From a filamentous cyanobacterium CCP2 (GTDB lineage: Bacteria > Cyanobacteriota > Cyanobacteriia > Elainellales > Elainellaceae): a stretch of 38,764 nt of DNA. This document shows, one piece after another, positions 841-15,138 of this stretch (within the stretch, counting starts at the first letter, position 1; each line of letters starts with the position of its first letter). The translations under genes were made by a program, and so were the position numbers. Location: assembly GCA_003003615.1 (NCBI GenBank), contig PVWD01000026.1, forward strand, positions 1 to 38,764, written 5' to 3'. The notes beneath the pieces are model-generated. The model saw only the letters and a list, made by a program, of their open reading frames with translations, was not told the DNA's origin and made no database searches.

Positions 841-3800
841 ATGAGCATTAATGTCGGCATCCCCCAAGGCCCTCAGAATCATAATTCAGTGAGCGAACCG
901 CTTGTTCAAATTCCCCTTTCAAAGCTGTTTGCATCTGCTCAAATTGTGCAGGAGGAACACCTTGATCTGCCCCCGCTAGAAATGCAGAGCTTTCGCTTGG
1001 GAGATGAAATCTTACTGAGTCATTCAACCACTTCGCTCTGTAAAGAATTGTCAGACGATCGCGCAGAAAGTTCCGTTCACGATAAACATATTCCGTCTGA
1101 TTTCTATTTAATTTGCCAGGGAAGAGTCCGGTTACTGTGCCAAAACATTCAACCCCGTGAGGTGACAGCAGCCTTACTAGAAGATGGAGAGGCGTTTGGT
1201 GCAGATGCACTCCTCAATCAAACTTCATTACCCTATCGAGCTGTCGCTGCAAGTCCTGTGCAAGTTGCTCGCTTTTCAGTAGATGAATTCATCTCGCTGT
1301 TAGATAAATTACCCGCACTGCGAAATTATCTGGAATGGCAGGCGAACCTGCGAGAACGCCTAATTTTCTTTAAAACCCACACGGCTTTAAGAACGCTCTC
1401 TAGCCATCAACTTCAATACTTTGTTGCTGAGTTGGTTGAGGAAAAAATTCCCCCTGGAAAATTTACATCTGAATATTCATCTAACCCCGCAGAACACAAT
1501 CCCACAGAACCCGTCGGAGAACGGATTTGGCTGCGTCAAGGTGATCTTTGCTGTAATACTCAACCGATCGCCATTGGTGAGAGTTGGGGATATCCTGATG
1601 AACCACCAACGGATTGGGTTGCCCACAGTGAGTTGCGGCTTTATAAGCTGTCGGCCAAGCACTGGGAGATGGTACAAGCCATGCTGCCGTCGGATCACGC
1701 TGTCCAAACTTCTGCCCCTACTGGACAGGCAACACCCCCCAACGGGCAAAATCCCCCTGGACGGACTCGATCGCGAGGACAAGTTATTTATCAACCCCTC
1801 CCCACTCAACGGGCTTCAACCCCCCTTCACCTCGTCTCAGAGCCATCTTCTCCGGCATTCACCGCAACTGAAACTTCGATCGTTTTTCCCAAACCTGTTC
1901 GTCGCCATTTGCTAGATGCCTTCAGTCGCTATCCCTGGGTGGAGCAGCAAAGCTCATCCGACTGTGGGGCCGCCTGTTTAGCAATGATTACGCGCTACTG
2001 GGGTAAACAAATTCCTTTACACATTCTCAGGGAGCAAGCCAACGTGGGGCGATCGGGGGCATCGCTCAAAAGTTTGGCAAAAGCATCTGAACTGCTGGGG
2101 TATCAGGCCCGCCCGGTACGAGCCAGCCTAAACCGCATGGCAGAACAGCCGAATCCCTGGATCGCCCATTGGGATGGCAATCACTACGTTGTGGTGTACA
2201 AAGTGACCGATCGACGGGTAATGGTTGGTGATCCGGCATTGGGGCGGCAATCTCTTTCGAGAGAAGAATTTCAAACGCACTGGACGGGCTATGCGCTGCT
2301 GCTTGATCCAACCACGCGCTTGCAAAGCACGGAAGTTAAACAAACTTCTCTCACTCGATACATGGGGGCATTGTTGCCCTACCGTTCAGTAATTTGGCAG
2401 ATTTTGGTATTCTCCATTCTGATCCAAATCTTTGGGCTGGTTACACCCCTATTCACGCAGATTATTCTCGATCGCGTGGTGGTGCAAAGAAGCTTAAGTA
2501 CTCTCAATATTTTTGCGATCGGGCTGCTGTTATTTGGGGTATGGAGTATTGGGCTGACTGCCGTTCGTCAATATCTTTTAAGCTACTTCTCAAATCGGCT
2601 GGATTTGACGCTAATCAGTGCTTTTGTGAGCCATACCCTGACGTTGCCGTTGAAATTCTTTGAATCGCGTCGCGTTGGGGATATTATTACGCGGGTGCAG
2701 GAAAACCAAAAAATTCAGCGGTTTTTGATTCAGCAAGTGGTGCTGGCATGGTTAGGCTTTGTGACCGGGTTTGTGTACCTGGGGCTAATGCTGTATTACA
2801 ACTGGAGACTAACGCTGCTAGTTTTATTGCTCATTCCACCGATCGTGATTTTGACTTTAGGTGCTACGCCTTTTCTGCGACACATTTCAAGGCAAATTTT
2901 TAAGGAGGTTGCCGATCAAAACTCGGTGTTAGTGGAAATGCTAACGGGAGTGGCCACGATTAAATCCGTTGCAGCAGAACAAGAATTGCGCTGGCGATGG
3001 GAAGATCACCTGACGCGCCAGTTAAATATGCAGTTTAAGGGGCAGAAGTTTGCGATCGGACTTCAATCTGCCAGTGGTTTAGTCAACTCGATCGGCGGCA
3101 CGCTGCTGCTCTGGTATGGGGCAACGTTGGTAATTCAAGAGCAATTAACCATTGGGCAGTTTGTTGCATTCAATATGATGGTGGGCTACGTCATCAGTCC
3201 TGTCATCGCCCTCGCCAATTTGTGGGATGAACTTCAAGAAGTTTTGATTTCCGTGGAGCGCTTGAATGATGTTTTTGAGGCTAAGCCTGAAGAGACTGCC
3301 CAGGAACATCTGTTGAGTTTGCCACCGATCGTTGGCAGGGTGGAGTTTGAGGATGTCACTTTCCGCTATGACGAGGACAGCGACCAAAACACCTTACAAA
3401 ACATCTCCTTTAAGGTGGAACCTGGACAGACGATCGCAATTGTGGGCCGCAGTGGGTCAGGTAAAAGCACCTTAGTGAAGCTGATTCAGGGGTTATACCA
3501 TCCTACTCAGGGGCGAGTCTACGTGGATGGACACGATATACGCCATGTTTCACCCCAGTCCCTTCGATCGCAACTTGGGGTTGTGCCGCAAGAGTGTTTT
3601 CTATTTTCTGGCACCATTACCGAAAACATTACCCTGCATCGCCCAGACTACTCACTTGAGGAGGTTGTAGAAGTCGCGAAGCTGGCAGAAGCCCATACGT
3701 TCGTTCAATCCATGCCTTTAGGCTACAACACAAAAGTTGGGGAACACGGCTCTTCCCTATCTGGAGGACAGCGGCAGCGAATTGCGATCGCACGGGCATT

Positions 3801-4065
3801 ATTAGGCAGCCCCCGCATTTTAGTATTGGATGAAGCAACGAGTTCGTTAGACACGGAATCTGAACGACGTTTTCAGCACAACTTAGCCCAAATCAGCCGC
3901 GATCGAACCACGTTTATCATCGCACACCGGCTTTCCACCGTTCGGAATGCAGATTGCATTTTGGTTATTGATCGGGGCATTTTGGTGGAGCAAGGCAATC
4001 ACCAAGCATTGATGGCTCAACAAGGACTTTACTATCACTTGGCTCAACAGCAGCTTAGTCTCTAG
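841..4065 (+). CDS. hetC: HetC-like peptidase-containing ABC exporter (cNMP-binding + C39 peptidase + ABC)
   Basis: A 1074-residue inner-membrane exporter of the peptidase-containing ABC transporter class. Domains in order: a cyclic-nucleotide-binding-like fold (about 87-155); a linker; a C39 peptidase domain (about 365-495) with Cys375 in DCGAACLAM, His448 in HYVVVY and Asp464 in GDPALG, the 16-residue His-Asp spacing usual for the triad; a transmembrane domain (about 515-790); and a nucleotide-binding domain with Walker A GRSGSGKST (869-877), signature LSGGQ (from 973) and Walker B ending in Asp997-Glu998. C39 domains cut leaders after double glycine as the cargo is exported. The added N-terminal cNMP-like domain is the architecture of HetC, which influences heterocyst development in Anabaena; the nearby hetP-like gene supports that name. 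Start chosen by AAGAGG at 828-833. Orthology to HetC itself, as opposed to a bacteriocin-exporter paralogue, is inferred from architecture and neighbourhood. Confidence 0.85.
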   Translation: MSINVGIPQGPQNHNSVSEPLVQIPLSKLFASAQIVQEEHLDLPPLEMQSFRLGDEILLSHSTTSLCKELSDDRAESSVHDKHIPSDFYLICQGRVRLLCQNIQPREVTAALLEDGEAFGADALLNQTSLPYRAVAASPVQVARFSVDEFISLLDKLPALRNYLEWQANLRERLIFFKTHTALRTLSSHQLQYFVAELVEEKIPPGKFTSEYSSNPAEHNPTEPVGERIWLRQGDLCCNTQPIAIGESWGYPDEPPTDWVAHSELRLYKLSAKHWEMVQAMLPSDHAVQTSAPTGQATPPNGQNPPGRTRSRGQVIYQPLPTQRASTPLHLVSEPSSPAFTATETSIVFPKPVRRHLLDAFSRYPWVEQQSSSDCGAACLAMITRYWGKQIPLHILREQANVGRSGASLKSLAKASELLGYQARPVRASLNRMAEQPNPWIAHWDGNHYVVVYKVTDRRVMVGDPALGRQSLSREEFQTHWTGYALLLDPTTRLQSTEVKQTSLTRYMGALLPYRSVIWQILVFSILIQIFGLVTPLFTQIILDRVVVQRSLSTLNIFAIGLLLFGVWSIGLTAVRQYLLSYFSNRLDLTLISAFVSHTLTLPLKFFESRRVGDIITRVQENQKIQRFLIQQVVLAWLGFVTGFVYLGLMLYYNWRLTLLVLLLIPPIVILTLGATPFLRHISRQIFKEVADQNSVLVEMLTGVATIKSVAAEQELRWRWEDHLTRQLNMQFKGQKFAIGLQSASGLVNSIGGTLLLWYGATLVIQEQLTIGQFVAFNMMVGYVISPVIALANLWDELQEVLISVERLNDVFEAKPEETAQEHLLSLPPIVGRVEFEDVTFRYDEDSDQNTLQNISFKVEPGQTIAIVGRSGSGKSTLVKLIQGLYHPTQGRVYVDGHDIRHVSPQSLRSQLGVVPQECFLFSGTITENITLHRPDYSLEEVVEVAKLAEAHTFVQSMPLGYNTKVGEHGSSLSGGQRQRIAIARALLGSPRILVLDEATSSLDTESERRFQHNLAQISRDRTTFIIAHRLSTVRNADCILVIDRGILVEQGNHQALMAQQGLYYHLAQQQLSL

Positions 4066-5010
4066 AGTTTGAAGCAGTAGGCGATCGCTAAGAATAACAG
4101 GAGATTACAGTATTCTTTATCACCGATTTCCTACTGCTATTTTATACAGCTACTAATAAGTTCTATCTTTAGAGGTATGTAATAGAATCCTTTATTAGAA
4201 AAGCTTAAATATCCCTATAAAGTGAGCTAAATTTTCTAATTATGCTTGCTCAAAATTTAATAAAAATATTGCAATAAACATCATGCTTGTTTCATGACTA
4301 TCTATAGATAGATAGTCAGAAAGACGATTGTTTAAAGTTATATATTTCGCGATCGAGTCAAAAGCAATCGTAAACGGAAATGCTTGACCATCAAAGAGTC
4401 TGGCTTGTTTATCCTTGTTCATCGCTTGCTTGATAAAGTTTTGATGAAGATGATCATTTAATCCTCGTAAAGTGAGGTTCGTGCGATTTCATAGAAGATA
4501 GAAACAGCAGTTTTCTGAAGCGTAGGATCAAAGTTTTAGTGCAGTCTTAATAGGAACGAGAGAATTAAATAAAAATTGCCAATTTGGCAGCTTCAGAAAT
4601 AGGCAAAAACTAATATAAATATATTGACGGAGGTACGTTTAAAGTTCGTTTTTGACAAATTGCTTTTATCAAGAATAAGAAAAACCAATCATTGTCCAAT
4701 TCGATCGATTAGCTGATTCAATCCCTGTTTTTCCGTTTGTTTAAAGCATCGTTTTACCAAAGCATTGTCTCAAGCAGTAACGATTCAGGGATTGTTTGTT
4801 CGCATCTGTCCAAGCATCATCGTCAATGCTGATGTTGCATCTACCCAAACTTACAAAATCCATGTTCACAAACATACCAGTCAAGCCCCCTACTGATATG
4901 ACTTGCAATTGCCTGTTAGCGAGCTAGTCTTCCTCCATTTGTTTTCTAGCTATCTCAACGCAATTGCTGACTTCGTATCCATAAATGAATGTTTACTGGT
5001 GACAGTTTTT
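4066..5010. other. Long intergenic region between hetC-like and hlyD
   Basis: No gene is supported here. Just after the exporter stop there is an 8-bp inverted repeat, GCAGTAGG at 4074-4081 and CCTACTGC at 4130-4137, followed by TATTTTAT; this may be a weak transcription stop with a large loop. A GCGATCGC octamer sits at 4081-4088. The stretch also holds the first copy of the locus palindrome (4577-4589). The length and the palindrome suggest hlyD has its own promoter and is not simply read through from hetC. Confidence 0.5.
4577..4589. promoter_or_regulatory. Locus palindrome copy 1 (TGCCAATTTGGCA)
   Basis: A 13-bp dyad, TGCCA-N3-TGGCA, with 5-bp perfect arms. It is one of five copies placed upstream of genes in this secretion locus and none was noticed in the housekeeping part of the window. 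It lies about 420 bp before the chosen hlyD start. A dimeric DNA-binding regulator is the simplest reading; the regulator is not identified. Confidence 0.55.
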
Positions 5011-6483
5011 ATGCAATTAAGATTTGCCCCCACACAGCAATTTGATGTCCTCACATCGCCTAGTTACACCGAGCTTGATGTACCGCTTGAAGCCCTTTCA
5101 GAATCAGAATCAGCATCCGTTCAAGGTGGCAGTGTTGCACCAATCGATCGCCCATCTCGTCCATATTCCGATTCTCAACCTGCTGAGCGTATCAAATCGT
5201 CAGCCCAATCTTCGAGTTGGAGTCCAGCCCTTCAAAATGTACTGGATCAGCCCCCATCTACCTTACCGCTTCGAGTGATGCTGGCAGGTCTGGCATTTTG
5301 CGGTGCTTTAGGGGCTTGGGCTTGGTTTGGTCAAGTTCAAGAAGTGAGCCAGGCCCAGGGTAGGCTTGTGCCAGAAGGTGAAGTTTATAAGGTGCAGCCT
5401 GTCACTCAAGGCGAGGTAACTCGCTTAGCGGTTGAAGAAGGGCAGCATGTCGAAGCTGGACAGGTGATTGCAGTGCTTGATCATCGCCTTGCTGAGGCTG
5501 AGGTCAACCGTTTGCAGCAGAGTTTGGTTTCGTATCAGTTTCAAATGCTTCAAACTCAAGGTTTGGTCGATCGCATTCGTTTAGAACTGGATACCAGAAA
5601 AGCAATCACATCCGCCGATGTCCGGGCACAAGAGGCCGCAATTGCCCAAGCGCAAACGGTGATCAATACTCACCATCAAACCCTCTCGCAGCGACAAGGA
5701 GAATTGGTGGCTTATGAAGCTCGCCTAGCGCGGTTACAACCTTTGGTGGCAGAGGGTGTCATTGCTCAAGAACAACTGTTTGAAGTGGAGCAAGCCATTC
5801 GAGAACACCAGCGAATCAATGTTCAAAGCCGTGGTGAGCTACAACAGGCAGTGGAGGAAGCCGATCGCCTGCAAGCTGAACTCATGCGCCGACAGGCAGA
5901 AGGACAACGCAGCGAATTAGAAACACAGCAGCGATTACAGCAACTCGAAGTGGAATTGGCACAAATCCAAGCCAAGATTACGGAAACGGAAAACCTATTG
6001 CAAGCGGCACAAACCCAACTGTCACAGATGCACATCTATGCTCCTGTAAGCGGTACTGTTACGTCTTTGAATCTCCGCAATACAGGTGAGGTCGCTCAAC
6101 CGGGGCAGACGATCGCTGAAATTGCTCCTGATGGTGTGCCGTTGGTGCTTTCTGCAATGTTGCCCAACCGAGAAGCAGGTTTTGTCCGTGAAGGAATGCC
6201 TGTACAAGTGAAGTTTGATGCATTCCCCTATCAAGATTTTGGTGTCATTGCTGGACGTGTCGTGTCAATTTCTCCGGATGCCAAACTCGATGAGCAAATG
6301 GGAGCGGTTTATCAAGTTGAGATTGCTTTAGAACAGCATGCTGTAGGTGCTGATACGGGTGAATCAATTGAGTTTCGCGCCGGTCAAACGGCAAATGCTG
6401 AAATTGTCACTCGGCAAAGACGAATTCTTGATGTGGTTCTAGAACCGATGAAAAAGCTTCAACAATCTGGCATTAATCTCTAG
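5011..6483 (+). CDS. hlyD: HlyD-family membrane fusion (adaptor) protein with leader-like N-terminus
   Basis: A periplasmic adaptor that would link the ABC exporter to an outer-membrane TolC-type channel. From this ATG the protein has about 490 residues: a cytoplasmic N-terminal stretch, one membrane helix (around LRVMLAGLAFCGALGAWAW), a first lipoyl/barrel half (VSQAQGRLVPEG onward), a long Gln/Glu/Ala-rich coiled-coil hairpin, a second lipoyl half (YAPVSGTVTSLNL), and a C-terminal beta domain. The frame stays open upstream to a TTG at 4903, but this is the first ATG and the extra residues look unrelated to an HlyD N-terminus. No strong ribosome-binding site precedes either start. The odd part is residues 22-40: LDVPLEALSESESASVQGG closely resembles a double-glycine export leader and especially the graspetide precursor encoded at 11745 (LEELSEAESSQVDG). 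The domain call is firm; the meaning of the leader-like segment is open. Confidence 0.9.
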   Translation: MQLRFAPTQQFDVLTSPSYTELDVPLEALSESESASVQGGSVAPIDRPSRPYSDSQPAERIKSSAQSSSWSPALQNVLDQPPSTLPLRVMLAGLAFCGALGAWAWFGQVQEVSQAQGRLVPEGEVYKVQPVTQGEVTRLAVEEGQHVEAGQVIAVLDHRLAEAEVNRLQQSLVSYQFQMLQTQGLVDRIRLELDTRKAITSADVRAQEAAIAQAQTVINTHHQTLSQRQGELVAYEARLARLQPLVAEGVIAQEQLFEVEQAIREHQRINVQSRGELQQAVEEADRLQAELMRRQAEGQRSELETQQRLQQLEVELAQIQAKITETENLLQAAQTQLSQMHIYAPVSGTVTSLNLRNTGEVAQPGQTIAEIAPDGVPLVLSAMLPNREAGFVREGMPVQVKFDAFPYQDFGVIAGRVVSISPDAKLDEQMGAVYQVEIALEQHAVGADTGESIEFRAGQTANAEIVTRQRRILDVVLEPMKKLQQSGINL

Positions 6484-6553
6484 AGGTTGCTTTGCCCCGT
6501 TTGGCTGAAAGTCTATTTAATGAAAATTTGTTGTTAGATCAGAGGTGATTGCT

Positions 6554-6928
6554 GTGTATTCACGACAACCTTCCAAGTTGGACAAAGCAATGACGACTGA
6601 GCAGTTTAATCAAGTAGTTGACGCTATCTTGGCAGGGAAATATTCCTGGGCATGTGTCTTAATTCTGCGCTTTGCTGGATATAATCCGCTTCACTATATC
6701 CCCTATCGCACCTACAATCGACTGATGAAAGAGAATTGCCCGAACCATAGGCAACGAAACCGCGAAAATAATCATCTTGAAGCTTGTTCAGAAGCATCCA
6801 ATCGAGGAACTGCCAGCCACATCACAGACTTAAATCATTTAGAAGCAATCGAGGAAAAACCGTGTGAAGTGCGAGGAGGCGATCGAGTGATTCCAGTGTT
6901 TTCGTGGCTTGATTGGAGAAGCAACTGA
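6554..6928 (+). CDS. hetP: HetP-family protein with a leader-like C-terminal segment
   Basis: A small protein of the HetP family, regulators that drive or delay commitment to heterocyst formation in Anabaena and also occur in strains without heterocysts. The diagnostic block is near-consensus: [19 protein letters not shown], then [23 protein letters not shown] at 6554 is chosen because AGAGG (6541-6545) lies eight bases upstream; GTG 6545 and ATG 6590 are also possible. Beyond the family domain there is a polar linker and then [20 protein letters not shown] followed by a 15-residue tail rich in Trp and Phe. This block closely resembles the leaders of the small precursors encoded just downstream. 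In Anabaena hetC and hetP are adjacent; here hlyD lies between them. Family assignment is strong; any role in cell differentiation in this organism is unknown. Confidence 0.85.
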
Positions 6929-6995
6929 CTGTCGCAAATTTAGTAAAAATGCAGGCAATCAGCGTCCTCATGTCAATCTGTTGCCATATCAATGG

Positions 6996-7022
6996 GGGAG
7001 CCCAGAGAAATCTGGCTCCTCT
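6996..7022 (+). terminator. Candidate intrinsic terminator after hetP
   Basis: GGAGCCCAGA pairs with TCTGGCTCC around a GAAA tetraloop, with one bulged C, and is followed by TCTTTGTTC. The stem is strong but the U-tract is weak. It would separate the hetP transcript from the peptide genes. Confidence 0.6.
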
Positions 7023-7248
7023 TTGTTCAAGAGGGGCAGAAAAATTTGAATGTTCAACTATCTTTGTTGTCTAAACATAACATTAGAAGTACGTCTATTC
7101 ATAGATTGGCTCAACCAATTTATTCCTTACGATACACTGTAAAATTCACTGATAAATGTTAAACGATCGTTCTTCAAGACACAAAAAATAGCGATTCTTA
7201 TCGCAGATTAAAATAGATTTTTTGATTACAAGTGAGCAGTTATAAATC

Positions 7249-7261
7249 TGCCAATCTGGCA
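7249..7261. promoter_or_regulatory. Locus palindrome copy 2 (TGCCAATCTGGCA)
   Basis: TGCCA-N3-TGGCA dyad ending 56 bp before the start of the first small precursor. This is the closest of the five copies to a start codon and suits an operator or activator site in the promoter region. Confidence 0.6.
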
Positions 7262-7317
7262 TAGCTTTAATTCATAAATTGTTTAAGCTTTCTGCATTAC
7301 TCAAGGAGAAATTTATT

Positions 7318-7638
7318 ATGCTAATCTCTGACTTAGAGCAATTGGAAGTTTTCTCTGAAGGTGAGTCTATCACAGGTGGCTTAGCTCCGAAATCTCTTTT
7401 GTTGAGATTAACCGATCGGCGGATTGGTCTCGCTCTGAATAATCAGCCATTACTTAACGAGACGTTAATCAGTGGTAAGCCGCTCAGCTCTGCATTTACA
7501 GCAGGTGAAATTTCTGGATTGCTAACTGCTACTTATACAGAAGATAGCAACCAAACCTCTAAAAAGGTGACTTTAACTGGAGTATCCGATATAGCCCAGT
7601 TCAACTTCGCATTCACGTATAGCGATGGCTTAATGTAA
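7318..7638 (+). CDS. Small precursor 1 with double-glycine leader
   Basis: A 106-residue peptide beginning MLISDLEQLEVFSEGESITGG, a leader of the M-x-I-x-DLE-x-L type that ends in GG after residue 21 and should be a C39 substrate. The remaining part (about 85 residues, from LAPKSLLLRL) has no Cys and no recognisable enzyme domain; it contains a beta-prone C-terminal half rich in Thr and Ser. The start at 7318 is fixed by AAGGAG at 7302-7307; an upstream in-frame ATG at 7279 lacks such a site and would hide the leader. Cargo of the nearby HetC/HlyD exporter is inferred from leader and context. The mature function (bacteriocin, signal or surface component) cannot be told from sequence. Confidence 0.75.
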   Translation: MLISDLEQLEVFSEGESITGGLAPKSLLLRLTDRRIGLALNNQPLLNETLISGKPLSSAFTAGEISGLLTATYTEDSNQTSKKVTLTGVSDIAQFNFAFTYSDGLM

Positions 7639-7685
7639 AGATAGTTGAGTTTTCGCAGCCAGTCATCACAACCGATTGAAAATTT

Positions 7686-7698
7686 CGCCATTTTGGCA
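7686..7698. promoter_or_regulatory. Locus palindrome copy 3 (CGCCATTTTGGCA)
   Basis: Same dyad with one changed outer base (C for T). It lies 111 bp before small precursor 2, in the gap between precursors 1 and 2. Confidence 0.5.
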
Positions 7699-7809
7699 GC
7701 ACATTTTACCTTGATGCAAGTATCTTGAATTACAACGGAGTATGTGCAAATAGAAGGAAAAACAGAATCCTTTTACTCCGAATCAACTGAATCAAGCGGA
7801 GATTAATTA

Positions 7810-8058
7810 ATGAGAATCAATGATTTGGAACACTTGAGCCTAGCTGAGCAATCCTATCTCATTGAGGGAGCCGCATTTGCATATGCTTCTTCAAGTTCGA
7901 CTGCTACGAAAGGATTTGCCAGTTCTGAATATCAAGCCCTTGCATCTGGCAATTCTTTCACCTTTACATCAGTTGATGCTAAAGTTCGCGTCATTTCTGT
8001 CCCTAAGTTTTCATCTAGCTCGTCTTCAACCTCGACGTATGCATATGGACGAGATTAA
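7810..8058 (+). CDS. Small precursor 2 with glycine-alanine leader
   Basis: An 82-residue peptide whose leader, INDLEHLSLAEQSYLIEGA, ends in GA, an accepted variant of the double-glycine site. The core is rich in Ser, Thr and Ala (YASSSSTATKGF, later SSSSSSTSTYAYGRD) and has no Cys. GGAG at 7798-7801 supports the start. The first half of the core parallels precursor 3: YA...A.KGF.....ALA.G in both, so the two look like paralogues. Exported cargo by inference; function unknown. Confidence 0.72.
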   Translation: MRINDLEHLSLAEQSYLIEGAAFAYASSSSTATKGFASSEYQALASGNSFTFTSVDAKVRVISVPKFSSSSSSTSTYAYGRD

Positions 8059-8164
8059 TTCGTTAAGTGTTTGCTTAAATCAGGGATTCTGAAACGATAC
8101 TTGATGAGAGCTTGATAGAAATCTACAAGCTCATGCCCCTTAAGTCTTGAAAAGCTCGATGTCT

Positions 8165-8258
8165 TGAAAGCCTAGAGCAGAATACAAGGAAATTCATGAT
8201 TTTCTATTTATCTGGCAAGAATTCTCTTTAGAGAGTATCCAGAATCTCTAGGCTTTCA
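8165..8258. repeat. 13-bp inverted repeat upstream of small precursor 3
   Basis: TGAAAGCCTAGAG at 8165-8177 is the exact reverse complement of CTCTAGGCTTTCA at 8246-8258. Inside lies a smaller hairpin, CTCTTTAGAG. The two could form a long stem in the 5' leader of precursor 3, or mark the ends of a small inserted element. A lone TGGCA half site (8213-8217) sits within it; this is the one precursor gene without a full locus palindrome. Confidence 0.5.
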
Positions 8259-8319
8259 TGGGTTTGAACTTTTATAAGGCTGACAGCAATCATTGAAAAA
8301 TCACTAGTAGGGAATAGTA

Positions 8320-8625
8320 ATGTTAGTTGCTGACCTTGAATACTTACAAACTGTAAGCCAATTAGACTGCATCAAGGGTGGTGCGTCTACTTATGCTGAA
8401 GCAAATGCAAATGCTTCTAAGGGTTTTTCTGACGCGGATGCCCTTGCTCTTGCCGCAGGGGATTATGTTCGTATAAAAACAAATACTTCGGCTATGACCT
8501 CATCTCGCGAACATGTGGATTATGGTTATGCCAGTGCTATTTCTGTTGCATTTGCTCAGACAGGTAATAAGTATTCTGTTTCTGTCGATCGCGTGGTAGA
8601 CACTAACGTTTCGCGTGGCTATTGA
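8320..8625 (+). CDS. Small precursor 3 with double-glycine leader
   Basis: A 101-residue peptide starting MLVADLEYLQTVSQLDCIKGG, giving a GG cleavage site after residue 21. The only Cys lies in the leader, so the mature core (80 residues) cannot form disulfides. The core begins ASTYAEANANASKGF and shares its first half with precursor 2; the C-terminal half is beta-prone (ISVAFAQTGNKYSVSVDR). It has no strong Shine-Dalgarno (TAGGGA at 8310-8315 is weak). Its transcript probably ends at the hairpin 8779-8808. Likely exporter cargo; function unknown. Confidence 0.72.
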   Translation: MLVADLEYLQTVSQLDCIKGGASTYAEANANASKGFSDADALALAAGDYVRIKTNTSAMTSSREHVDYGYASAISVAFAQTGNKYSVSVDRVVDTNVSRGY

Positions 8626-8778
8626 ACTCACACTAATTGCGAAAATGAGTGTCTTTCAAGGTGTGAATAAAGGTAGAAGGCAATAATTCCCACTTAACTG
8701 AGGTATCCGCTGATCAAAGTAAGCCATATCAGAATCAACACTCTGATGAAAGCTAAGCAGTAATTACTCCATTGATAG

Positions 8779-8808
8779 GGCTGTAGTGGCAATACTACAG
8801 CCTTTCTT
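8779..8808 (+). terminator. Intrinsic terminator after small precursor 3
   Basis: Perfect 9-bp stem GGCTGTAGT/ACTACAGCC with a six-base loop, followed by TTTCTT. Confidence 0.8.
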
Positions 8809-8969
8809 ATTCAAAATGAGATGGTAAGTAAGCTTTGTCTAATTTAACTATTATAGGCAACATTTTCTTTAGCAAAAATGCAATATCCATTTCAAAGTTT
8901 GACTAAATCTTCTAACAGAAAAATCCCTGAAATTTGAAAAAATATTTATTCGATAAATACTGGTAAAAC

Positions 8970-8982
8970 TGCCAGAATGGCA
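8970..8982. promoter_or_regulatory. Locus palindrome copy 4 (TGCCAGAATGGCA)
   Basis: TGCCA-N3-TGGCA dyad ending 80 bp before precursor 4. It is identical to copy 5, including the flanking C before and ACA after. Confidence 0.6.
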
Positions 8983-9062
8983 ACACTAATTTTTTAGGTC
9001 GTTTATTCTTAAAAGTAACAGGTTAAAACCTGCTAATGAAACCAAGTTTTGGAGAAAGTGCA

Positions 9063-9347
9063 ATGTTTATCTCTGATCTATCCTACCTGAATGAAATCGA
9101 AGAAAACATTTCCGGTGGTAGCCGTGATTTCAGATTCAAGAAAGACATCAAGGTTGATGTGAAGGTTGATGTTAGACAAGATGTTAAAGCTAAAGGTGCT
9201 TTCAACGAGCTAACTTTTGACCTGTATGCATTTGGAACCAAGGGTTCCGGAACTGAGATTGTAGTTGAGCAAACTGCCATTTCAGAGCCTTATTACAACC
9301 TGTCTGCTCAGAATGGAACAGTTGTTAGCTATGCTTCTGCCTACTAA
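9063..9347 (+). CDS. Small precursor 4 with double-glycine leader
   Basis: A 94-residue peptide beginning MFISDLSYLNEIEENISGG; the leader is two residues shorter than in precursors 1 and 3 but keeps DL-x-x-L and GG. After GG the core is highly charged and alternating (KKDIKVDVKVDVRQDVKAKG), a pattern of amphipathic beta strands, then a polar beta-prone tail ending in YASAY. No Cys. GGAG at 9051-9054 supports ATG 9063 over the in-frame ATG 9036, which would place nine residues before the leader. Flanked by its own palindrome upstream and a clear terminator downstream, so it is a single-gene unit. Exported cargo is inferred. Confidence 0.75.
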   Translation: MFISDLSYLNEIEENISGGSRDFRFKKDIKVDVKVDVRQDVKAKGAFNELTFDLYAFGTKGSGTEIVVEQTAISEPYYNLSAQNGTVVSYASAY

Positions 9348-9401
9348 TAGTAGACTCTGCTTTTAGACGAGCTACTTGAGCAAGCTAAATATTTCATTTG
9401 C

Positions 9402-9440
9402 ATTAGCCACATGTTATTTAGACCTGTGGCTAATTTTTTT
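9402..9440 (+). terminator. Intrinsic terminator after small precursor 4
   Basis: Perfect 10-bp stem ATTAGCCACA/TGTGGCTAAT with a 13-base loop and a run of seven or more T. Confidence 0.88.
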
Positions 9441-9525
9441 GTAAGTAACAGTGAACCAAGGATAATTCAGCCAAGTTTACAGAAGAAATTGAAGAAGGAA
9501 TTAGAACCAAATTTATAACTAATTC

Positions 9526-9538
9526 TGCCAGAATGGCA
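9526..9538. promoter_or_regulatory. Locus palindrome copy 5 (TGCCAGAATGGCA)
   Basis: Same 13-mer as copy 4, 180 bp before the RTX-repeat gene. Confidence 0.58.
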
Positions 9539-9718
9539 ACATTGAAAACTTAATAATGTACTTAATAGTATTAGGTTTTCATAACAAACACGCATTGCGA
9601 TCGTTCATGTCAATTTTCTCTCGATTTTTAGATAGTTGAAATTGAAACGATAGTCTCAAACGATAATATCAAGAGTTTGCACTGCATGTAGGTTGTTCCC
9701 CTTTCCGGTCTACTAATT

Positions 9719-10627
9719 ATGGCAACTCACAACAAACAAGGTACCAGTAAAGTTTCTGGCTACTCTACTTCATTCGTTAATGAAGAAGGAGCAGGTGGTA
9801 GTAGCAGTGTTACAGTGAATTCACCCGTAGGTTCTGGTACAAGCAGCGACACTCAGTTTGTGCCGGGTGCTACTTCCAGCAGTAGTACTGTCAACGTTAC
9901 GACATCTCCAGCCGGAGTCACCACATCTACAAATGTTGAGGTTCCTGCCTCTCCAACTGACTCTCTCAACACACCGATTGAGACCCCTATCAGTGGTTCC
10001 CTTAATCCTCCTACCGCATCTCCTCAAGTCCCTGTCTCTCCTCAAGTCCCTGCACCTCCGAGTGACTCCCTCAATACCCCTGCTCCCATCTCTCCGTCGC
10101 TGGTGCAAGGTGAAGTATTAAGGGGCGATCGAGCCAACAACGGCATTCGTGGAACGAACGGCAATGACACCATTTTTGGCAGAGGTGGAGACGATCGCCT
10201 GTTTGGGAGACAGGGAGATGATCTGCTTTTGGGTGGTCGCGGTAACGATACGCTGCACGGAGGTCCGGGTGACGATATTTTAATCGGTGGGGCTGGCGAT
10301 GACGTATTGATTGGTGGAGCTGGAGCAGACACCATGATTGGTGGACGAGGTGCCGATACTTTTGTACTTACCAGTCAAGCGATCGAGTCTGCTCGTGCCA
10401 ACGTTATTGTCGATTTTAAGCTCGACCAAGGGGACACAATTCGTTTGAGTAAGCGGATCGCCATTAGCGATATTGACTTTGAGACGTTTGACTCAAATGG
10501 TAATGGCAGCGTTGACGCAACACTGATACGATTAAAAACAAATAATCAAATTTTGGGAATTGCTTTAGGAACAGTTGATTCAACCGGAAACACAACATTG
10601 TCTACTCAAGTATTTACATCGGTTTGA
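9719..10627 (+). CDS. RTX-type calcium-binding repeat protein
   Basis: A 302-residue protein. The first 130 residues are low-complexity, rich in Ser, Thr, Pro and Val, with near-repeats of SQVPVS/SLNTP and no membrane helix or classical signal peptide. Residues about 138-215 hold tandem GGxGxDxUx nonapeptides (for example GRGGDDRLF, GGRGNDTLH, GGAGDDVLI), the calcium-binding beta-roll of RTX proteins, and the C-terminal 85 residues resemble the flanking domain that follows such repeats (ADTFVLTS...IVDFKLDQGDTIRLS). RTX proteins leave by type I secretion using an uncleaved C-terminal signal, so it could use this HlyD adaptor or another exporter. No lytic or enzymatic domain is visible; a surface, adhesive or matrix role is the cautious reading. 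Confidence 0.85.
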   Translation: MATHNKQGTSKVSGYSTSFVNEEGAGGSSSVTVNSPVGSGTSSDTQFVPGATSSSSTVNVTTSPAGVTTSTNVEVPASPTDSLNTPIETPISGSLNPPTASPQVPVSPQVPAPPSDSLNTPAPISPSLVQGEVLRGDRANNGIRGTNGNDTIFGRGGDDRLFGRQGDDLLLGGRGNDTLHGGPGDDILIGGAGDDVLIGGAGADTMIGGRGADTFVLTSQAIESARANVIVDFKLDQGDTIRLSKRIAISDIDFETFDSNGNGSVDATLIRLKTNNQILGIALGTVDSTGNTTLSTQVFTSV

Positions 10628-10686
10628 TATTCACAAGATAAAGATTTTAAGATGCTGAATTTAAAAATTAGAGCTGGCTAGGACGA

Positions 10687-11439
10687 ATGACGTACTTAAA
10701 AACGATGGTTAACTTTGCGAATTCACCGATTTCATCGGAACGTATTGTTGATTTTTTGAAACAGGAAGTTCAAATAAAAGAAGTTTCTCAAAAGATTTTA
10801 TGGCAACAGATTGTTTCTGAAGCCGCACAGGAGCGTAGTATTGTTGTGTCCTCAGACGAGATTCAAGCCGAAGCCGATCGCCAACGTTACCAAATGCGAT
10901 TAGAAAGTGCGGCCGCTACATTTGCTTGGTTAGAAGATCAGTTGATTACCCCAGAAGACTGGGAAGCAGGAATTCGTCAGAAACTGTTGGCGCAAAAGTT
11001 ATCAGAATCACTGTTTGCAGATGAGGTAGAGCGGTACTTTGCCGAACATCGCCTGGACTTTGAGCAAGTTTCACTCTATAGAATTACTGTTCCATACGAG
11101 CAACTTTCTCAAGAATTATTTTATCAAATTGAGGAGAATGAGATTAGCTTTTATGAAGCAGCTCATTTATACGATATTGACGAACAAAGGCGGTTGCAGT
11201 GCGGCTATGAGGGACGATTTTATCGATGGAGTTTGAAAGCAGAACTGGCAGCAGCTATCTTTGGCAGCAGCTTAGGAACGCTCATTGGCCCACTAAAAAA
11301 TGAACATGGATATGACTTATTTTTAGTTGAAGAGTTTATCTCAGCAGAATTAACTCCGGTCGTCCGTCAAGAAATTATCGATCGCCTGTTCAAAGAGTGG
11401 TTAGTCCGCGAATTAAATTACTTAATTCATAATCAGTAA
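10687..11439 (+). CDS. SurA/PpiC-like protein with degenerate parvulin domain
   Basis: A 250-residue, mostly helical protein resembling the SurA/PpiC peptidyl-prolyl isomerase family often found beside cyanobacterial HlyD/C39 exporters. The N-terminal part matches the helical chaperone domain (SDEIQAEADRQRYQ, WLEDQLITPEDWEAGI, KLLAQKLSESLFADEVERYF); the C-terminal part has the parvulin order, ending in IGPLKNEHGYDLFLVEEF. The two histidines usual in active parvulins (in the SHIL-type strand and the YH-type strand) appear to be replaced: the corresponding segments read LYRITV and YDLFLV. There is no signal peptide or lipobox. It may therefore be a cytoplasmic holdase that keeps cargo unfolded for export, not an isomerase. 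It sits 59 bp after the RTX gene, so a shared transcript is possible. Confidence 0.7.
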   Translation: MTYLKTMVNFANSPISSERIVDFLKQEVQIKEVSQKILWQQIVSEAAQERSIVVSSDEIQAEADRQRYQMRLESAAATFAWLEDQLITPEDWEAGIRQKLLAQKLSESLFADEVERYFAEHRLDFEQVSLYRITVPYEQLSQELFYQIEENEISFYEAAHLYDIDEQRRLQCGYEGRFYRWSLKAELAAAIFGSSLGTLIGPLKNEHGYDLFLVEEFISAELTPVVRQEIIDRLFKEWLVRELNYLIHNQ

Positions 11440-11511
11440 CCTATTCAAAATCAGTAGCAAAACAGCATTCATCTCGGTTTATTCTTCAGTTTATTCTATG
11501 GAGTAAGCGCA

Positions 11512-11730
11512 ATGATGCGGAAGCAAGTAATCAGCAAAAAAATCCAATCTCCTGATGGTAAAACGATCGCCTATGCCAAAAGTATTGTCGTTACATCATC
11601 AGATTCATCCGAAGATGACACAACAAACAATATTCATCAAACTGTAACTGTCAACGTCTCCTCCAGCAGTTTCTCTAGCAGTAGCAGTTCCTCTAGCAGC
11701 AGTCGTTCTTCCTCTAGCAGTTCTACTTAA
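11512..11730 (+). CDS. Small poly-serine peptide upstream of the graspetide gene
   Basis: A 72-residue protein with a conserved-looking N-terminus (KKIQSPDGKTIAYAKSIVV), an acidic patch (SSDSSEDDTTNN) and a final run of about 20 residues that are almost all Ser. GGAG at 11500-11503 precedes the start, with the adjacent ATG at 11515 as an alternative. It ends only 14 bp before the graspetide precursor, so they are very probably co-transcribed. No leader, GG site or known domain is seen. It could be a small secreted or accessory peptide; poly-Ser coded largely by AGC/TCT/TCC triplets could also vary in length by replication slippage. Confidence 0.6.
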   Translation: MMRKQVISKKIQSPDGKTIAYAKSIVVTSSDSSEDDTTNNIHQTVTVNVSSSSFSSSSSSSSSSRSSSSSST

Positions 11731-11744
11731 ATAAGGAGAAACCC

Positions 11745-12089
11745 ATGCGGCACCCATTTGACTTAAATTTAGATGAAATAGAGGCGATTGATTTGGAGTT
11801 TTTAGAAGAGCTATCTGAAGCAGAATCCTCTCAAGTTGATGGGAGCTTTCGTTCCACAACAAAAGCATTAGGCGAAGAAGGCGGAGGGTTCCCAGTTCCC
11901 GCTCCAAAACCATATCCTTCACCACGCTCCCATCCCAGACCTCACCCGATTGCTCCGCCAGAAGTCACGACATTGGCTTTAGGTGAAGAGGGAGGAGAAT
12001 GGGCAACAACCCTAGCATTGGGTGAAGAAGGAGGGGACGTGGTTACTACAATGGCGATCGGGGAAGAAGGCAGATTTCAGATTCAGTAA
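11745..12089 (+). CDS. Graspetide (plesiocin-type) precursor with four TTxxxxEE cores
   Basis: A 114-residue ribosomal peptide precursor. Four repeats fit the TTxxxxEE core of plesiocin-type graspetides: TTKALGEE (38-45), TTLALGEE (75-82), TTLALGEE (88-95) and TTMAIGEE (101-108). In this class an ATP-grasp ligase joins Thr side chains to the Glu carboxylates by ester bonds. The last three repeats have a 13-residue period; the first is set apart by a Pro/His/Arg-rich linker (49-72). The leader (1-33) is acidic and ends LEELSEAESSQVDG, which resembles a C39-type leader ending in a single G before Ser, so processing by the HetC-like exporter is plausible. AAGGAG (11733-11738) gives a strong start. 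The ligase gene follows after six bases. Class assignment is firm; ring pattern and activity are inferred. Confidence 0.88.
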   Translation: MRHPFDLNLDEIEAIDLEFLEELSEAESSQVDGSFRSTTKALGEEGGGFPVPAPKPYPSPRSHPRPHPIAPPEVTTLALGEEGGEWATTLALGEEGGDVVTTMAIGEEGRFQIQ

Positions 12090-12095
12090 CGCATC

Positions 12096-13001
12096 ATGAT
12101 CATTCTGATTTTGGGTGATGCCTCCGATGCCCACGCCGCCCATTTAAAGCAAACTTTGGAACAAAAGCCTGTAAAAGTCTTTTATTGGAATACTCAGCTG
12201 TTTCCGACTCAGTTACGATTATCCTGGCAGCCCAATCACCAAACGGGCTGTCTTCTTTTACCAAATGGACAACGGCTAAACTTTCAAGACATTCACAGTG
12301 TATTCTGGCGCAATTTCTCCGGTGTCTTTGTTCCTTCTCCGTCTAATCTGGTTCAACATCAAATCGGTGTTCGAGATGCAAGCAGTGCGCTGCGATCGTT
12401 TATTCAGGCTTGCCCTGCCCATTGGGTCAATTCCTGGAAAGCATACCAGTTTCACCAGGAAAAGCCATTACAACTGGCAAAGGCGAAACAAATCGGTGTA
12501 ACAATTCCCGACACACTAATTAGCAACGATCCGGAACAGATCAAAGAATTTACCTACCTCCATGAAAAGGTAATTTTTAAACCTGTTACTGGAGGGGCGC
12601 ATACTCAACTTTTAACCGAAAAACACCTAGAGCCAGATCGCTTAAAAACCGTATTAAAACTTGCACCTGTCACCATTCAAGAATATATTCCAGGAACAAA
12701 TCTTCGCAGCTATGCGATTGGAAGTTCGGTTTACACCGCTGAAATTCGTAGTTCAGCCCTCGACTTCCGGGAAGACCAATCTGCACAACTGATTCCCTTT
12801 GAACTCCCAGACACCATCCAAAAGCAATGCCAATCGATCGCTCAGGCCTTCTTTTTAGAGTGGACGGCGATCGACTGGCGTTTAACTCCTGCGGGGGAAT
12901 ATGTTTTTCTAGAAGCAAACCCCAGCCCAATGTTTCTGCATTTTGAACATCAAACCGGATTGCCCATCACTCAATCTCTAATGCAGTTGCTCCTGTCCTA
13001 G
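12096..13001 (+). CDS. ATP-grasp ligase, graspetide macrocyclase
   Basis: A 301-residue ATP-grasp enzyme of the MvdC/MvdD/PsnB type that would make omega-ester (or amide) links in the preceding precursor. Visible features: N-terminal Rossmann-like strand (MIILILGDASDAHAAHL), the FWRNFSG segment, the ATP-binding strand KVIFKPVTGG, QEYIPGTNLRSYAIG, and the metal/ATP site DWRLTPAGEYVFLEANPSPMF. Length matches stand-alone graspetide ligases. It is encoded six bases after the precursor and has no obvious separate promoter. Only one ligase is present, consistent with a single ring chemistry (likely esters on TTxxxxEE). Its stop overlaps by four bases the stop of the convergent gene on the other strand. 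Confidence 0.9.
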   Translation: MIILILGDASDAHAAHLKQTLEQKPVKVFYWNTQLFPTQLRLSWQPNHQTGCLLLPNGQRLNFQDIHSVFWRNFSGVFVPSPSNLVQHQIGVRDASSALRSFIQACPAHWVNSWKAYQFHQEKPLQLAKAKQIGVTIPDTLISNDPEQIKEFTYLHEKVIFKPVTGGAHTQLLTEKHLEPDRLKTVLKLAPVTIQEYIPGTNLRSYAIGSSVYTAEIRSSALDFREDQSAQLIPFELPDTIQKQCQSIAQAFFLEWTAIDWRLTPAGEYVFLEANPSPMFLHFEHQTGLPITQSLMQLLLS

Positions 13002-13876
13002 CGCATCTCTAATGGATGGAACTCATTCTGCACCTCAACGGGTTGAGTTGCCAGTTGTTCTGACTTTTTCCGCTTCCGCCGCATCAAAGGCAGCAGAACA
13101 AAGTTAAACAATAGCCCAGGAAGTAAACTGGGTGTGGGAACGGCTTGCACAGCAGCTTCATTAATTTGAAACTGCTCCAACCGTAGGGTCACGGGAGCAT
13201 CAAAGGTGCGAGAGTACTGTCCTAAAAGGAGTGCCGATGCGCTCGACTGGTTTCCGTTTGTTTGCAGCGAGGTGAAAGGCAAGAAACTCACATTATCACT
13301 CGGCTGCAAAATAGTGAAAGCAGGTGCATCAGATGAGCCGGATTGCCCAAACAACTCAAGAGAGTTTCCAAAGCTAAAAGAATCGAGTAGCTCTTCAGTT
13401 CCATCTCCTACTGAAAACAGGTTGAAGCCAATGCGCGTAGAAGCAAATGCCGCCTCCAAAGCTGGATTGTCGATAGAGGCAGACAAAGTGAACTGCGAAA
13501 GGAAATTGAAGGAAAATACACGCTGAACGTTAAACGATCCGGTAACGGCTGCCTCACTCCTGGCAATTCCCAGGTAATTAAATCCGGTTCCGCTTGCAGA
13601 ACTTTCTGAAATGCTGACCCCAAAGATGGGCAATATAAAAGAATCCGCATCGGCGGTTGCCGTAGCTTCACCCAAACCCGTTGCGATCGTCAAGGTATCT
13701 GTGTCTGCGGCAGCACCCAGATCAAACGCAAAAGGGCTAAAGTTGCTAATAAATGTTGTTGTGCGAGAGGTTGTTAGCGTTGCTGCATAGCTGGGCAGCG
13801 TGGGAAGGACTGAGGCTGCTGTAAGAGGAACAACAACCAGGAGAAGCTTGGAAAATAGTTTTGATGCTGGTTTCAT
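12998..13876 (-). CDS. Secreted PTPA/PEP-CTERM-type surface protein
   Basis: A 292-residue protein with a signal peptide (MKPASKLFSKLLLVVVPLTAA, cut after about SYA) and a low-Cys, Ser/Ala/Phe-rich beta-type body of unknown fold. Near the C-terminus it has VPTPSLLPGLLFNFVLLPLM (246-265) followed by RRKRKK, the tripartite sorting signal of cyanobacterial PTPA-CTERM proteins (Pro motif, hydrophobic helix, basic stop). Unusually, 21 more residues (SEQLATQ...LEMR) follow the basic cluster, whereas such signals normally end the protein. Likely anchored at or released from the cell surface after exosortase-like processing. The gene converges on the ATP-grasp ligase with a CTAG stop overlap, so it is not part of the peptide operon. 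Confidence 0.75.
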   Translation of the reverse strand: MKPASKLFSKLLLVVVPLTAASVLPTLPSYAATLTTSRTTTFISNFSPFAFDLGAAADTDTLTIATGLGEATATADADSFILPIFGVSISESSASGTGFNYLGIARSEAAVTGSFNVQRVFSFNFLSQFTLSASIDNPALEAAFASTRIGFNLFSVGDGTEELLDSFSFGNSLELFGQSGSSDAPAFTILQPSDNVSFLPFTSLQTNGNQSSASALLLGQYSRTFDAPVTLRLEQFQINEAAVQAVPTPSLLPGLLFNFVLLPLMRRKRKKSEQLATQPVEVQNEFHPLEMR

Positions 13877-14232
13877 GCGTGCCTTTGAGTAAACTGCAAT
13901 GGAATTTCAGTTGTTTACGGCAAAAGAAATAAGACAGTAGAAGTTACTACAAGCCATAGGGGATAAGCTTGGAAACGCTAAATTTGCCCTAACTGTCCCA
14001 TCGATCGCCATAGGGCAATAAAAGCAGCACAAACGGCCTACCCGTTTGGGTAAGACAATCCCGTTTGGGTAGAGGCAATGATGCGATACGTAGTTTTTCG
14101 GGGTTGATGCGTCCTGTGTTTTTACGTAAGTTCGTCGCCCTACGATAATCTTAGGGCACCTTTAATAAGGGTTTTGTCAAGCTAACCGTGTTTTATTTGA
14201 AACCTGGATAAAGCTTGAATACGATCGTATTT
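13877..14232. other. Intergenic region upstream of the CTERM gene
   Basis: Promoter region of the minus-strand CTERM gene. The motif TACCCGTTTGGGTA (14039-14052), itself a dyad, is followed 8 bases later by a second near copy, CCCGTTTGGGTA (14060-14071). No gene seen. The hydrolase transcript from the right would have to end here; I see no clear terminator. Confidence 0.45.
14039..14071. repeat. Two adjacent copies of (TA)CCCGTTTGGGTA
   Basis: Direct repeat with 20-21 base spacing, each copy internally palindromic (TACCC/GGGTA). The spacing is two helical turns, as for cooperative operator sites, about 165 bp upstream of the CTERM gene start. Function is inferred only from form and place. 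Confidence 0.5.
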
Positions 14233-15138
14233 CTACTGAGCTTGTTGAGGTTTTTCCGATAACCCCAGTACCCAACCCTGAATTAGACTGTTTACCTGCT
14301 CAGGCACTTCATCATGGGGGCAATGTCCGGCTTGCAGGTAGTATTCTGTTAACTGTGGGCAGTGCTGCCGGAATTTTGCTCCACGTTCTCTTGCTCTAAT
14401 CCAGGGATCTCCTTCGCCCCAAAGCATCAGCAACGGACACTGCATTTGGCTAAGCAAAACATCGTTTCGTTCACCTTGGGGCGATTTAAACACCGCAGCA
14501 AACACGCTGGCTGCTCCCGGATCACAAGACGGACGGTAAATGTCTTCTACAAGCTGGTCGGTGACAGCCGTTTGATCCAGGTAAACCTTCTGAAGCGTTT
14601 TGCGAATCACCGACTTTTGCCTCACGTATTGAAACAAGAGAAAGCTGGGCAATGGCTGCAAAAGCATCGATCGCATCATTCCAGAGAGGGTTTTCTGAAT
14701 CGGGTTTGGTTCTGGAACCGATTCTGTTGGCGTGAACGGCCCGGCAGAGTTTAATAAAATTAACCCTGCGGCTGACTCAGGGCGTTGGGCCGCCACACAC
14801 AGAGATGCATACCCCCCCAAAGAATTTCCTGCCAACACTGCCGGTTGCCCAATTACCTCTGTAATAAACTCATGCAGTTGGTCACGCCACAAATTACCGC
14901 TATATTCAATGCTTGGCTTTGCCGATCGCCCAAACCCCAACAGGTCGATCGCCCATACTTCAAATTCCCCTTTCAAGCCCTCAATGTTTTTGCGCCAGTG
15001 GTCTGTTGAAGCTCCAAACCCATGCACCAGCAGCAAAGGAGGGCGATCGGCATGGGGAGTACCCGCCTTGACATAGTAAACAGAATGTCCGCGCCACTGC
15101 CAGTAAGTTCCGATCGAAGGAGAAACTGCGGTTTGCAT
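14233..15138 (-). CDS. Alpha/beta hydrolase, pheophytinase/chlorophyll dephytylase-like
   Basis: A 301-residue alpha/beta-fold hydrolase. It shows the oxyanion-loop HGFGAS, the nucleophile elbow GNSLGG (Ser), the acid in LWGEGDPWI and the catalytic His in AGHCPHDEVPEQVN. The elbow GNSLGGYASLCVAA and the AGHCPHDE ending resemble the plant pheophytinase and chlorophyll dephytylase group, which remove phytol from pheophytin or chlorophyll; several cyanobacterial relatives are annotated only as alpha/beta hydrolases, so the substrate is a guess. No signal peptide. Gene is alone on the minus strand, divergent from the rimP operon. Confidence 0.8.
   Translation of the reverse strand: MQTAVSPSIGTYWQWRGHSVYYVKAGTPHADRPPLLLVHGFGASTDHWRKNIEGLKGEFEVWAIDLLGFGRSAKPSIEYSGNLWRDQLHEFITEVIGQPAVLAGNSLGGYASLCVAAQRPESAAGLILLNSAGPFTPTESVPEPNPIQKTLSGMMRSMLLQPLPSFLLFQYVRQKSVIRKTLQKVYLDQTAVTDQLVEDIYRPSCDPGAASVFAAVFKSPQGERNDVLLSQMQCPLLMLWGEGDPWIRARERGAKFRQHCPQLTEYYLQAGHCPHDEVPEQVNSLIQGWVLGLSEKPQQAQ

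Follow-up and report, generated by a model that had tools for sequence, protein, structure and literature searches.

The requirement for HetC in heterocyst formation is long established. In PCC 7120, hetC and hetP are functionally linked by genetics (PMC4133259; PMC10986499), and a 2024 study showed that both the C39 and the ATPase residues of HetC are essential for heterocysts in this strain (PMC10986499), an ATPase requirement that fits export better than pure proteolysis. The same study reported finding no gene with a double glycine in the vicinity of hetC, asked about export of a HetP-derived peptide, and named identification of the substrate as the crucial next step for HetC (2024, PMC10986499). 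Previously, a moderate, three- to fourfold over-expression of hetP was found to fully complement loss of the HetC peptidase domain, and the C-terminal fusion HetP-GFP localised equally with and without the HetC peptidase (2014, PMC4133259). In another study, the motif KIxDLxYLEx10GG was described in HetP proteins beside bacteriocin clusters, HetP was listed as a possible bacteriocin precursor, and cleavage by M16 was suggested (Wang, Fewer, Sivonen et al., 2011, PMC3140520). The double-glycine motif of HetP itself has thus been in print since 2011, and the novelty lies in its connection with HetC; a literature search that covered few subscription journals and no preprints found no paper tying the HetP double glycine to the HetC peptidase. 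For comparison at the level of leader residues, the hydrophobic positions described for LahT are Val-4, Leu-7 and Leu-12.

The window analysed here, i.e., the whole stretch of 38,764 nucleotides, carries a gene for a HetP-like protein of 127 residues (6545..6928; forward strand, as are HetC, HlyD and the four precursor ORFs below), with HetC and HlyD encoded upstream and four small leader-bearing ORFs downstream. The protein scored 122.6 bits against the NCBIfam model NF037966, HetP_family (cut-off 45; E 3.6e-36), and thus belongs to the HetP family; Pfam PF18736, a first family guess, proved wrong. Its start codon is uncertain (GTG at 6545 or ATG at 6590), and the stop codon lies at 6926-6928. 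The HetP domain recognised by NF037966 (residues 8-64; 6566..6736) is all-helical in the predicted structure, with a core pLDDT above 90. A variable linker separates it from a double-glycine leader-like block, which an earlier note on this DNA had placed at 6821..6880 and which was recovered exactly there as residues 93-112, with a cut predicted after G112. The tail of 15 residues that the note had described behind the block is likewise present (6881..6925), is followed directly by the stop codon, and is predicted to be released. The structure prediction is confident for the domain only, the block having a pLDDT of 50-62 and a short helix at residues 91-96, and so it gives no information on binding. 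A fold search with the HetP model returned no match below E 0.001, and no solved structure related to HetP by sequence was found. The genome, which holds just this one HetP gene, also has HetR and nifH and was placed outside the Nostocales set.

A cognate transporter with an intact C39 triad is encoded in the neighbourhood of HetP. This HetC-like peptidase ABC transporter (841..4065) matches the Pfam families cNMP_binding (1e-10), Peptidase_C39 (1e-41), ABC_membrane (4e-44) and ABC_tran (3e-38), has its C39 Cys, His and Asp and all four ATPase motifs intact, as in HetC and peptidase-containing ABC transporters (PCATs), and is the sole long C39 transporter of the genome. Its C39 peptidase domain (residues 363-491; 1927..2313; Pfam PF03412), in which the catalytic residues could be aligned, is the proposed enzyme. 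The HlyD-type membrane fusion protein (4903..6483; TIGR01843, E 1.9e-68; true start probably near 5011) bears a leader-like double-glycine segment of its own, ELDVPLEALSESESASVQGG, with an [ILV]xG[GA] motif in its cytoplasmic N-terminus (5071..5130). Downstream of HetP, the four precursor ORFs begin with the leaders MLISDLEQLEVFSEGESITGG (7279..7638; probable start 7318), MRINDLEHLSLAEQSYLIEGA (7810..8058), MLVADLEYLQTVSQLDCIKGG (8320..8625) and MFISDLSYLNEIEENISGG (9036..9347; probable start 9063). The same cluster includes an RTX-repeat protein (9719-10627) and a PpiC-like peptide-maturation protein (10687-11439; TIGR04500, under the cut-off). Further downstream, a precursor with TTLALGEEGG repeats and a leader ending in DGS (11745-13001) adjoins an MvdD-like ATP-grasp ligase, and the two form a probable graspetide pair.

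The resemblance between the HetP block and the precursor leaders was evaluated with a leader HMM built from precursor leaders of related loci, from which HetP and all window sequences were excluded; these leaders read M(I/V)ISDLNYLEVVxxETxIVGG. Against this model, the tail of the window HetP scored 17.9 bits, with the best of 20,000 shuffles at 9.4. As expected of a C39 substrate, it thus matches the leader profile and has GG at the end, where GA or GS would also qualify, and 0 of 20,000 shuffles scored as high. In total, 134 of 150 HetP tails scored above the 99.9% shuffle level. The leaders that the earlier note had quoted from nearby precursors do exist (in the ORFs at 7279-7638 and 8320-8625), and the likeness that it saw between them and HetP is borne out by this precursor-leader profile. 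A loose regular expression for leaders performed at chance level (309 real and 316 shuffled hits) and was replaced by profile scoring; the claim therefore rests on the profile and on conservation. In an alignment of 41 diverse HetPs, which were picked by similarity to the query so that the unbiased survey below carries more weight, the two glycines are invariant, as otherwise only residues of the HetP domain are, and the linker and tail vary freely. The spacing of the motif is identical in 82 of 85 motif-bearing proteins. Unlike the N-terminal leaders of small C39 precursors, the HetP block sits behind a folded domain. As read from the profile and the alignment, it is a putative C39 leader, short yet complete, placed behind a regulatory domain, and it and the adjoining precursor leaders are, by the same measure, members of one family.

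When 386 cyanobacterial genomes were searched with the HetP domain, 64 proved to contain HetP, and most of these HetP genes were taken with their flanks. In this phylum-wide survey, GG stood at the block position in 30 of 37 HetPs beside HetC versus 7 of 67 elsewhere (Fisher p 4e-13, uncorrected for kinship). Among the GG-bearing HetPs away from HetC, L120 and L131 lie on contigs without a visible HetC, and GG is kept in five genomes that have lost HetC (L137, L142, L149, L188, L191). The block is absent from all of the approximately 30 Nostocales HetP paralogues away from HetC, and in L170 a second HetP, which adjoins a second HetC of its own, has it. The conservation across the HetP family for which the earlier note proposed an alignment of C-termini thus holds for HetPs beside HetC and fails for paralogues elsewhere. 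Exceptions occur as well: the block is missing from HetPs beside an apparently intact HetC at L125, L129 and L168 and from one of the two HetPs in L133, and L190 has GR instead of GG beside an intact C39. In L190, the Walker A motif of HetC is deleted and the signature is lost; it is still counted as an exception because other ATPase-eroded HetCs keep the HetP GG. Many Nostocales (e.g., L023, L040, L063) encode another C39 transporter, distinct from HetC and frequently accompanied by a separate HlyD, 1.5-5 kb downstream of hetP; HetPs with this transporter nearby are not thereby protected from loss of GG.

As read off the tree, about ten events of loss or breakage of HetC have occurred within Nostocales. 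The presence of HetC was determined by a search with its cNMP-C39 half, in which E values below 1e-100 marked HetC and those near 1e-55 other C39 transporters; in the loss lineages, HetC is missing genome-wide, with other C39 exporters remaining. A two-trait model in which loss of GG depends on an intact HetC peptidase was compared with independence, and one Nodularia-type genome (L198), whose HetC has the catalytic Cys of C39 changed to Ser, was recoded as peptidase-dead ahead of the final tests. The tree was built from a single marker, rpoB, with a single choice of root; it spans 78 genomes, most of them from heterocyst formers, and contains one large clade without HetC. On this tree, the dependent model beat independence (LRT 34, p 4e-9; first coding p 1e-9), and the rate of GG loss was about 70 times higher without the HetC peptidase than with it (16.2 versus 0.22). 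Loss remained correlated when GS and GA were counted as intact (p 2e-4), and the tail, scored as at least 15 residues, was also lost together with the HetC peptidase (p 3e-6). GG was retained in 11 of 50 tips without an intact HetC peptidase.

The loss is confined to particular columns. Without an intact HetC, conservation fell from 0.93 to 0.41 at I-4, from 1.00 to 0.51 at G-2, from 0.96 to 0.29 at G-1 and from 0.85 to 0.16 at W+5 of the tail, V-11 and L-17 collapsed too, and the HetP domain was unmoved (0.82 to 0.80). In the Nodularia-type genome L148, HetC is of full length with Cys to Ser and His to Asp changes in C39, and the HetP GG has become GS; a sister genome has the Cys to Ser change and a retained GG with the tail cut down. 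In HetC-less Nostocales (e.g., L195, L204, L213), the first half of the block, KIKDxAYxEVGGK, is still conserved after loss of GG and tail, hinting at a second role.

The transporter parts of the system have a different history from the peptidase. Outside Nostocales, all 38 full-length HetCs have intact C39 and ATPase motifs. Among 41 full-length HetCs of Nostocales, a set that includes close relatives and repeats of one genome, 39 have the C39 triad, 16 have all four ATPase motifs and 18 have LSGG; the ATPase motifs are eroded in 25 (e.g., L060, L029, L047, L058 and L041). In L044, L047, L049, L058 and L074, the lipoyl-hairpin part is missing from the HlyD encoded between the two genes hetC and hetP; this HlyD retains the membrane segment, the barrel part and an N-terminal IYGG or ICGG. 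HetP keeps GG and tail in genomes with such a degenerate HetC ATPase or HlyD, which suggests, at the level of sequence, that selection in these Nostocales preserves cutting and not export; the system in many heterocyst formers looks reduced from an exporter to a protease. This reading is at odds with the essential ATPase of PCC 7120, and thus lineages may differ. The cytoplasmic N-terminus of HlyD has an [ILV]xG[GA] motif in 30 of 41 distinct hetP-linked sequences (3.2 expected from shuffles), typically as ASIYGG and in the window as SASVQGG, versus 1 of 42 other HlyDs. HetC may also cut, or dock, its own HlyD adaptor through this N-terminal double glycine.

On this evidence, HetP is probably a substrate of HetC that is cut after the double glycine, and it is the best candidate for the HetC target. 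The suggestion of the earlier note that the C39 domain could bind HetP or release its tail agrees with every sequence test run and is, to that extent, partly supported. In the proposed reaction, the C39 domain of HetC would grip the HetP block and cut behind the second glycine, so that HetP would end in GG and a short tail would be set free. Where the HetC ATPase is intact and HlyD is full, as in the window, this tail might then be exported. In the many heterocyst formers in which both exporter parts have degenerated and the C39 triad, the HetP GG and the tail persist, the reaction would most simply be processing of HetP itself. Removal of the tail might change the activity of HetP, we infer; if uncut HetP is less active, extra HetP would bypass HetC, and lineages without HetC would drop the tail. 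Points against HetP as a substrate are the exceptions named above, the localisation of HetP-GFP, which is the same with and without the HetC peptidase, and the sequence of the window HetP, which, with V at -4, P at -7, I at -11 and A at -12, lacks the hydrophobic -7 residue usual for C39 leaders. A more specific proposal, which we hold only tentatively, is that in heterocyst formers the exporter has become a signal-gated membrane protease: HetC, acting through its cNMP domain, would cut HetP, and perhaps HlyD, at GG, with the ATPase and the periplasmic adaptor decaying, and the tail would restrain or mislocate HetP until it is cut. Such restraint, if true, would explain both the bypass of HetC by extra HetP and the loss of GG and tail in HetC-less lineages.

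The rival that survives best, doubtful as it is, overlaps with this explanation on cleavage and differs on the product: the HetP domain would serve as a long leader, as in NHLP/Nif11 precursors, and the tail would be a secreted bacteriocin or signal peptide. A tail acting as a signal would be expected outside the cell and would fit cleavage equally well. Wang et al. (2011, PMC3140520) suggested a precursor role, and HetC, a full HlyD and precursors occur together in non-heterocystous loci. The tails are short, variable and aromatic, F, W and Y making up 16% of their residues versus 1.3% in the linker; those of non-heterocystous HetPs have a median of 18 residues after GG and are rich in F, W and Y (e.g., FRYFWW, AKNWWYF and VGIFGNFWRV). 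The essential HetC ATPase of PCC 7120 likewise favours export. However, the GG and tail kept beside Nostocales HetCs without ATPase motifs and HlyDs without the lipoyl-hairpin argue against this rival, and the HetP domain, which is among the most conserved parts of the protein and is common to paralogues without GG or tail, is poorly explained as a leader.

Docking without cleavage, in which the block tethers HetP to C39 and HetC holds HetP at the membrane, is unlikely. HetC-GFP and HetP-GFP are both seen near the heterocyst poles (PMC4133259), and in HetC-less lineages the helical half of the block persists longer than GG; however, the glycines required for cutting are the positions most strictly tied to HetC, the tail beyond them is tied too, and localisation of HetP-GFP is unchanged when the HetC peptidase domain is deleted. 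It is more improbable still that the block is a relic, without present function, of an ancient fusion to a precursor gene, and that its loss with HetC is general locus decay. The block does equal a whole precursor leader (L016: MIISDLNYLEVVNQETGIVRGG) and a few HetC-less genomes keep GG, but the GG is invariant across a wide cyanobacterial diversity, and GG, -4 and tail columns are lost specifically, with the HetP domain untouched. Cleavage at GG by another peptidase such as M16 (Wang et al., 2011), genes for which are present in some group II clusters (PMC3140520), has the slightest chance of all, given that GG loss tracks HetC and its C39 triad, that the block matches C39 leaders, and that M16 was matched by none of the proteins examined in the 841-15138 part of the window.

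Evolution treats the HetP double glycine and HetC as a pair, and it is the neighbouring hetP that bears a double-glycine site. A question still open for the best-known case of bacterial differentiation thus becomes a simple cleavage assay, and the locus would offer an example of a secretion protease reused for processing a developmental regulator. Compared with known systems, the window resembles Anabaena/Nostoc PCC 7120 in that hetC adjoins hetP, HetP has its domain, and HetC combines C39 with a cNMP domain; it differs in its full HlyD, its several precursors and a genome outside the Nostocales set. The HetP precursors of Wang et al. (2011, PMC3140520) share the identical motif, the protein family and the clusters, but were discussed in terms of M16 and bacteriocins, whereas the block is tied here to loss of C39/HetC. 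With ComA, LahT and CvaB, the locus has in common the C39 triad and, for the leaders, GG at -1/-2, a hydrophobic -4 and an upstream contact segment; unlike those leaders, that of HetP follows a regulatory domain and is close to the C-terminus, and the hydrophobic -7 residue is missing. NHLP/Nif11 precursors show the same succession of a folded domain and a short GG leader end; in contrast, the HetP domain is a developmental regulator, common to paralogues that have neither GG nor a core peptide.
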